Origin: Halorhabdus amylolytica
Lineage (GTDB): Archaea > Halobacteriota > Halobacteria > Halobacteriales > Haloarculaceae
Assembly: GCF_004944975.1 (NCBI RefSeq)
Contig: NZ_SPQG01000003.1
Coordinates: forward strand, 287,023 to 345,611
Reading direction: 5' to 3'
Length of the DNA: 58,589 nt
The notes under the pieces are model-generated. The model had not been told where the DNA came from. It made no database searches and was given only the letters and a program-made list of their open reading frames with translations. The first letter of the stretch is position 1. Each line of letters begins with the position of its first letter. The position numbers and the translations under genes are program-made. Shown here in pieces: positions 38,496 to 39,461 of this stretch.

Positions 38496-39461
38496 TTACC
38501 CGAAGTGATCCAGGCCGGCCTGGCGGCGACGCTGCCCCTCAGGATCGCGTCGCCAGGCGCTTCGTTCGGCTCGCCGAGCCACGTGGTCGATCTCCGGTGG
38601 GTCGGCCGGTTCGTGACCGGCACAATCCGTCCCGCACTCGCTGGCCGGGTCGACGATCCGGCCGGCCCACTGACAGTACGGCACCGCCACGTCCGGCCCG
38701 CCCTCTGGGGCACACTGTCCGCAGGCCGGAAGCTCGAACGTCCGCCAGCCCTTCCCGTAGGCCCGTTCGGCGATCCGCCGTCGCACACGCCGCTTCTGGT
38801 CGGCTGTGACGATCGCGATGTCCGACCGGCCGGGCTGGCGATCGAGAATTTCGACCCCCGCTGTCGCCGGATCGAGCGGTTCCGGCTCCCGGAGGACCTC
38901 CCGATCACCCGTCCTGGAATCGAACTGCCAGATCCCGACCTCCTCGGGGATGCGGTTGCGATGGGCGCCAGTAACGTGGGAGGCCGTCGCCAGGACGACT
39001 TCGTCAAAGATACCCAGCGAGACGTCAGTCCGGAGCTGTGCCTGGAGATCGCCCGGCCGGTCGAGGTCGGGTTTGTTCTCGATGCCCACGAGACGGTCGA
39101 ACCACGCGTCGGGATACCGACAGACCTGCCGGACGGCCGGATCGCCGTCACAGCGCTCGCGTTCGAAGAAGTCCGCTTTGACGGCCCGCTCGACGATCCG
39201 TTGGCGCTCTTCGGGTCGCCGATTCGGGAAGACTTCCTTGATACGCCGGGCGCTGCCCGGACCGACGGGCGCTTCGATCGCTACCGGCGGGATCGTCCCG
39301 TCGGTGATGGACGCTCGCCGCTCGAACGCGGGCCCAGGTTCGACCGTCACGACGTCGACGATCCGGCGGCCCTGGACGTGTGCGCCGAGCTGGCGGGCCA
39401 GGAGTCGCTCCTCGCTTTCGAGTTCACCACACAGCGCCAGCTCGAACGCGTATTCGCGCAC
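38496..39461 (-). CDS. DUF5787 protein with PD-(D/E)XK-like and cysteine-cluster features
   Basis: 321 residues from a GTG start at 39461 (VREYAFELALCGELE), the start typical of this haloarchaeal family; an upstream ATG would add a basic low-complexity stretch. Visible: Pro117-Asp118, then Glu128-x-Lys130 within YPDAWFDRLVGIENK, the spacing of PD-(D/E)XK nucleases. Cys11 lies near the N-terminus, and a C-terminal set Cys247, 250, 263, 276 and 280 could bind an Fe-S cluster or zinc. This layout resembles Cas4/AddB-type iron-staple nucleases, but that is inference; the family has no assigned function that I know. Confidence 0.75.
   Translation of the reverse strand: MREYAFELALCGELESEERLLARQLGAHVQGRRIVDVVTVEPGPAFERRASITDGTIPPVAIEAPVGPGSARRIKEVFPNRRPEERQRIVERAVKADFFERERCDGDPAVRQVCRYPDAWFDRLVGIENKPDLDRPGDLQAQLRTDVSLGIFDEVVLATASHVTGAHRNRIPEEVGIWQFDSRTGDREVLREPEPLDPATAGVEILDRQPGRSDIAIVTADQKRRVRRRIAERAYGKGWRTFELPACGQCAPEGGPDVAVPYCQWAGRIVDPASECGTDCAGHEPADPPEIDHVARRAERSAWRRDPEGQRRRQAGLDHFG

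Follow-up and report, generated by a model that had tools for sequence, protein, structure and literature searches.

Which process in the haloarchaeal cell is served by a protein of PF19100 (DUF5787), a family that Pfam lists as being of unknown function? The question is raised by one gene of the window, that is, of the whole stretch of 58,589 nucleotides of Halorhabdus amylolytica DNA analysed here. Its product matches the family in a Pfam profile search with an E-value of 3.9e-94 and 315.9 bits against a curated cut-off of 25. The initial annotation had described DUF5787 as lacking an assigned function, in agreement with the Pfam entry. A literature search for DUF5787 or PF19100 returned no paper on the family by title or shown abstract; one article (PMC3287961) concerns core and unique haloarchaeal proteins. 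The predicted fold, the conserved site, a C-terminal PIP motif, the distribution and the paralogy of the family were computed here. Throughout, W denotes the paralogue subfamily of the window protein, and P the second paralogue subfamily of DUF5787.

The start of the W gene was inferred as the point at which the conserved N-terminus of its relatives begins, a GTG codon at 39459-39461. Across 139 W genes the codon at this point, a start codon by construction of the script, is GTG in 122 cases and ATG in 16. A plus-strand open reading frame of 357 aa overlaps the gene and was set aside as antisense to it, in GC-rich DNA. The features discussed below are collected in Table 1.

Table 1. Features of the DUF5787 gene, in window coordinates.
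Feature	Position	Strand	Basis or remark
DUF5787 gene of the W subfamily, predicted to encode a PCNA-linked PD-(D/E)XK nuclease	38496..39461	-	321 aa, GTG start
Predicted nuclease core, first part, residues 1-45	39327..39461	-	model secondary structure, conservation
Predicted winged helix inserted after β2 and before β3 (residues ~56-116)	39114..39296	-	VIA matches
Predicted nuclease core, second part, residues 117-192	38886..39113	-	model, profile alignment, conservation
D36 codon, proposed metal-binding Asp	39354..39356	-	conservation, strand β2 of model, structural offsets
D118 codon, Asp of the initial annotation, not conserved	39108..39110	-	139-sequence alignment
E128-N129-K130 (ExK) codons	39072..39080	-	invariant in W
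Cys4 site C247, C263, C276, C280 (C250 variable)	38622..38723	-	conservation
Putative PIP box Q314-A-G-L317-D-H-F320-G	38499..38522	-	tail motif, conservation; pLDDT < 50 at 309-321

Predicted fold and active site

The structure model of the window protein, built with 74 related sequences, reached a pLDDT of 88.1 and a pTM of 0.85, and a separate model of a P paralogue was poorer (68.2 and 0.56). On VIA re-alignment the solved structure closest to the window model was 3dnx (Z 12.0 over 129 residues, rmsd 2.9), followed by PaqCI (Z 9.3) and XisH (Z 9.0 and 8.7) and then, at Z 7.5-7.7, within the range below 8 that can arise by chance, by Can2, NucS, EndoMS and Card1 (EndoMS/NucS at 7.7). All of these are PD-(D/E)XK proteins. 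For the P model, too, 3dnx was the top match (Z 10.8), and winged helices matched about residues 67-130. Foldseek returned no match of the window model in the PDB at E<=0.001, and two at that threshold in a viral structure library (4.8e-4 and 7.4e-4), both named MmcB-like. The predicted model and its VIA re-alignment, on which the fold assignment rests, support a PD-(D/E)XK fold of the arrangement α-β-β-β-α-β for the DUF5787 core, and the nuclease fold proposed in the initial annotation gains support from this prediction, from profile similarity to sce7726-like proteins described below and from the invariance of the predicted active site.

In its first part the predicted core comprises helix α1 with E3, E7, C11 and E15, strand β1 with R23-Q24 and strand β2 with D36; the second part holds β3 with E128-N-K130, a helix with Q142-x3-D146, β4 and the P172..G176 segment. 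In the model D36 lies in the strand 34-42 and E128 in the strand 121-129, flanking the winged helix, so that the core appears to be interrupted by an insert that separates β2 from β3. Winged helices of the MarR, ArsR and Zα types match the window model only at residues 56-118 in VIA. A Zα, or Z-DNA, reading of this domain was dropped, as the MarR and ArsR types score alike; Zα chains do occur among the Foldseek matches of the model, and the residues that contact Z-DNA are not seen in the window protein.

The active site had been read initially as Pro117-Asp118, nine residues and Glu128-Asn-Lys130. All of these residues are present in the window protein, but the aspartate is not part of a family motif: position 118 is Asp in 34 of 139 distinct W proteins and a gap in 86, and an acid occurs somewhere in positions 117-120 in 136. 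In the same alignment E128, N129, K130, Q142 and D146 are invariant (139/139), and D36 is found in 138 sequences, the sole exception being a frame-broken copy. All 59 P proteins have counterparts of D36, E128 and K130. D118 was rejected as the catalytic aspartate on these counts, and on the model this residue is most likely D36, so that Asp118 appears to have been misassigned to the site. The alignment, which the initial annotation had named as the check on its Asp, Glu, Lys and Cys residues, upheld E128, K130 and four C-terminal cysteines; D118, C11 and C250 proved variable.

Structural offsets bear on the same residue. The VIA ranges pair residue 126 of NucS with model residue 2, residue 130 of EndoMS with residue 1 and residue 8 of 3dnx with residue 1; counted without gaps, D36 then falls at NucS 160, EndoMS 165 and 3dnx 43, numbers that are taken from ranges and serve as a lead, not as a residue-level test. 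NucS 160 and EndoMS 165 are the catalytic aspartates, and in 3dnx Asp44 precedes the Glu of the E-x-K by fourteen residues. In Card1 the same ungapped count, with the same standing, puts D36 at 288, six short of the site residue D294 named in the entry title. D36 lies outside the confident part of the sce7726 alignment, and its assignment therefore rests on the model and on invariance.

Cysteines and the C-terminal tail

The initial annotation had counted one N-terminal cysteine (C11) and five C-terminal ones (C247, C250, C263, C276 and C280), all of which are present; two more, C104 and C114, had gone unmentioned. It had compared them with the iron-sulfur staple of Cas4/AddB nucleases, in which N- and C-terminal cysteines close round the nuclease core. 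The comparison has its attractions, as five well conserved cysteines flank a predicted PD-(D/E)XK core and C11 sits in helix α1; an additional set of conserved cysteines on such a nuclease is what it would have in common with Cas4/AddB. In those enzymes the N-terminal cysteine of the 4Fe-4S staple is obligatory and the C-terminal spacing is of the C-x2-C-x5-C type. DUF5787 differs in the number and spacing of its cysteines, in its winged-helix insert and in the dispensability of C11. The four cysteines C247, C263, C276 and C280 are each present in 139/139 W proteins, separated by x11-28, then by x12 (129/139) or x11 (10/139), then by x3 (138/139), whereas the cysteine at 250 occurs in 58 of the 139 and that at 11 in 127. 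Among the 12 W proteins without C11 one is a broken copy, and the other 11 have Ala or Ser at this position with the C-terminal set of four intact; in P the C11 equivalent is Ser in 3 of 59 proteins, again with the four retained. An obligatory N-terminal ligand is therefore unlikely. Nor does the loss of C11 seem to be compensated, since a cysteine between 247 and 261 occurs in 1 of the 11 proteins without C11 against 61 of the 127 with it. Pfam scans of DUF5787 members found no Cas4, AddB or RecB-like family, and no Cas4/AddB structure stood among the VIA rows shown, an absence that excludes nothing. The staple was rejected on C11 loss and cysteine spacing, and a Cas4/AddB-like nuclease of this kind is an unlikely description of the protein. 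Judged from conservation, a self-contained Cys4 site is the simpler reading, and its metal would more likely be zinc than an iron-sulfur cluster.

Beyond the Cys4 site the protein ends in a tail that the model places with low confidence and in which Q314 and L317 are nevertheless invariant (139/139 W). The pattern Q-x-x-h-x-x-aromatic occurs within the last 30 residues of every one of the 139 W proteins, ending 0-3 residues before the C-terminus in 133 and a few residues earlier in the other six, and was found at the terminus of none of the 59 P proteins. As a positive control, the box of haloarchaeal FEN1, a known PIP-box protein (QTGLDRWT and variants), was recovered in 25/25 loci read, 39 genomes having been matched. 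As a background, a PIP-type box was found in 0 of 268 conserved neighbour ORFs, many of which are mutual homologues and hence not independent. The W box, in the form QSGLDRFG, is nearly identical to the FEN1 box QTGLDRWT, and the version in the window protein is QAGLDHFG; FEN1 itself belongs to another nuclease family (XPG_I, PF00867).

In PMC7776575 the PIP box of H. volcanii is given as QxxLxxFx and its carriers as PolB1, PolD, RFC-B, Fen1 and RNase H2; PMC2737543 gives the consensus as QxxI/L/MxxFF/Y, normally at the extreme terminus. The W box often ends in Gly, not in the second aromatic residue of the general consensus. No DUF5787 protein was named in a literature search on PCNA partners. 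The W tail, absent from the initial annotation and new here, is a putative PCNA-binding PIP box on the strength of this motif, and because of it a role of W in DNA repair or replication gains support.

Distribution, paralogues and relatives

In a profile search PF19100 was present in 289 of 292 haloarchaeal genomes, which bears out the expectation that the family is widespread in this group. Among 14 well-known control genomes it matched only Haloferax volcanii, and a combined W and P profile, run on 392 genomes of the phylum, gave a match in 80, every one of them inside the haloarchaeal order; among the 312 without a match, at least one (G021) lies in the order and at least 19 lie outside it. 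A search of a genome contig collection with the single window sequence gave no match, and a profile search of genome contigs gave 526 relatives, the best 80 of which have titles naming haloarchaea or halophilic archaea. The window protein found no relative in phage records and the DUF5787 profile none in viral contigs; plasmid records yielded one match, an 828 kb replicon of Natronorubrum that carries the P paralogue.

Most haloarchaeal genomes have two PF19100 matches each. A third match was in 8 of 8 three-match genomes, on closer look, one P copy aligned in two pieces, and a third family copy was accordingly rejected. In the tree the 139 W and 59 P proteins fall on opposite sides of one branch with a support of 1.0, and in one alignment the window protein shares 47-68% identity with the other 38 W and 30-35% with 35 P proteins. 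Going by the sequences, the split is ancient: because both groups separate on one supported branch, the duplication is older than the families sampled.

A few genomes deviate. Three small haloarchaeal genomes of 1.9-2.3 Mb (G021, G218 and G285) have no PF19100 match; G021 has FEN1 and also lacks a match to NucS. In G184 the W gene matches in two pieces in different frames (L155, L166), no P copy being listed, and its sequence would suit either a broken gene or an assembly error. The W proteins of G032, G045 and G046 give two-piece alignments, split near residues 176-207 with the frame open, so the loop there is probably longer.

The surroundings of the two paralogues are distinct. In 21 W neighbourhoods, with neighbour families assigned from one scanned member per cluster, an Rpb7/RpoE1-like gene and an AAA ATPase gene each occurred nearby in 15, eIF2γ in 14 and an MBL-fold gene in 13, all on the strand opposite W; W is thus probably transcribed as a separate unit, and these neighbours say little about it. 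Of 20 P neighbourhoods, 16 have a Nudix gene, annotated in Natronorubrum as a bis(5'-nucleosyl)-tetraphosphatase, just ahead of P on the same strand, an RDD-family gene intervening in 3, and a small operon of Nudix and P is possible. DUF5797 is near P in 17 of the 20 and faces it in 16. The P copy of the window's own genome (L082 6402-7948, C12) likewise lies behind a same-strand Nudix gene and faces DUF5797. No repair genes and no defence families were found among the neighbour families scanned.

The window protein matches NCBIfam sce7726 (NF033832) over residues 123-194 with an E-value of 0.0027 and 17.6 bits, below the curated cut-off of 70 for membership of that family, and 14 of 74 DUF5787 members match it at E<=1. 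Of 246 genomes of the phylum, 6 have proteins resembling sce7726, all scoring below the curated cut-off. A profile of the DUF5787 core aligned to five of these six with Prob 75.7 and E 2.4e-5 in a first hhalign run and with Prob 90.9 and E 1.1e-6 in a second, in which 0 of 200 column shuffles reached the score and a reversed control gave Prob 0.56; with the full-length profile the values dropped to Prob 36.1 and E 3.8e-4. The alignment pairs E128-x-K130, Q142, D153, P172 and G176, so that the similarity extends over β3 with ExK, the Q helix, β4 and the P..G segment, and a distant relation of the core to these proteins is supported at the profile level. In four of the five relatives, too, the ExK strand is separated from a likely β2 Asp by an insert, here of 103-107 aa. 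These proteins differ from DUF5787 in the cysteines of their insert and in having Q-x3-Y in place of Q-x3-D. With inserts before ExK in both families, this site probably took them up more than once. The sce7726-like proteins with the cysteine-bearing insert (L138-L141) constitute an uncharacterised nuclease-like family in the same phylum.

By fold, the best match of both W and P is 3dnx (SPO1766), which belongs with the MmcB-like family PF06319; when a profile built from eight MmcB-like proteins of phages and plasmids was run against the PDB, 3dnx was the top match, though at no better than E 0.17, and the alignment covered a D-x13-E-x-K segment. Unlike DUF5787, the aligned MmcB-like proteins have no insert between Asp and ExK, no Cys4 site and no PIP box. 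Membership of DUF5787 in this family by sequence was rejected: PF06319 gave no match to 74 full sequences at E<=1 or to 17 core sequences at E<=10, and hhalign values of E 0.011 (Prob 3.9) and E 0.005 (Prob 7.0) with phage MmcB-like proteins were not significant against shuffles, a local rerun scoring 6.62 while five of the top ten of 60 shuffles scored higher, up to 14.95. Haloarchaeal NucS fared similarly, with a core-to-NucS hhalign Prob of 0.2, not significant against shuffles, and PF01939 (NucS_C) not among the families matched by 74 DUF5787 sequences. EndoMS/NucS is nonetheless a PD-(D/E)XK fold neighbour of DUF5787 (Z 7.7, in the range open to chance) and an archaeal DNA nuclease reported in PMC7776575 to interact with PCNA. 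It differs in being a separate gene in the same genome and in that eight NucS C-termini examined carry no PIP-type box. In sequence searches of the PDB the full profile and the core profile each had a single match, at chance level; matches in PHROGs were weak and scattered, and PADLOC gave one weak match, to the window protein over the ExK region (E 0.0077).

Proposed function and its alternatives

We consider it likely that W-type DUF5787 proteins are PCNA-tethered, metal-dependent PD-(D/E)XK DNA nucleases of haloarchaea; metal ions, nuclease activity, a DNA substrate, PCNA binding and a role in repair or replication are what we infer for W from the features above. In such an enzyme the nuclease core would be divided, β2 with D36 and β3 with E128-x-K130 being parted by the winged helix, which may bind duplex DNA beside the active site. 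Metal binding and phosphodiester cleavage would fall to D36, E128 and K130, close to which lie E7 and Q142/D146, and the C-terminal Cys4 site would steady or extend the DNA-binding surface. The disordered tail would dock its QxxLxxF box on PCNA in the manner of FEN1 and thereby bring the nuclease to forks or to patches under repair. The P paralogue, with the same predicted core and Cys4 site and without the tail box, would act without PCNA docking.

Besides the Cas4/AddB-like enzyme considered above, other functions are compatible with part of these data. A restriction or defence-type nuclease directed against incoming DNA is suggested by the presence of PaqCI, a restriction enzyme, and of Can2 and Card1 among the fold neighbours, and by the weak PADLOC match. 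Defence genes are usually patchy in their distribution, whereas DUF5787 is found in nearly all haloarchaeal genomes searched, usually in two copies, with no defence family among the scanned neighbours and with a PIP box, and a function in defence is improbable. We regard as equally improbable an enzyme that cuts RNA as part of the translation or RNA-processing apparatus, which the neighbouring eIF2γ, Rpb7/RpoE1-like and PIN proteins would suit and for which the fold offers precedent, as some PD-(D/E)XK enzymes cleave RNA; in loci that keep this cluster, however, W lies on the opposite strand from it, and the winged helix together with the PIP box points to DNA. Least probable of all, in our estimate, is a catalytically inactive DNA-binding regulator that uses the nuclease fold as a scaffold: the MarR/ArsR-type winged-helix domain would be in keeping with a regulator, but the complete D/E/K set is kept in W and P, and an inactive scaffold would need none of it.

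It is conceivable, and we put it forward tentatively, that a near-universal, lineage-specific nuclease held at the clamp serves an unassigned repair or replication step and that a clamp-independent paralogue shares the work. Candidate steps include, for example, incision at crosslinks or at lesions that block forks, or, in polyploid cells, the nicking of DNA for gene conversion; Haloferax is described in PMC11276520 as polyploid and as having efficient gene conversion. MmcB is portrayed in a review (PMC9578287) as a PD-(D/E)XK endonuclease that guards Caulobacter from mitomycin C. As it is the nearest described enzyme by fold and protects against this agent, incision at crosslinks or lesions would be the first candidate role.

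The PIP box provides a specific prediction that separates W from P, and the presence of the family in Haloferax volcanii, a genetic model, makes direct testing possible. A nuclease active site divided by a DNA-reading domain, as the model predicts, would be a useful case for understanding how such enzymes are aimed. If W-type DUF5787 proteins are indeed clamp-tethered nucleases, a core component of DNA maintenance in a major class of archaea would have been overlooked.
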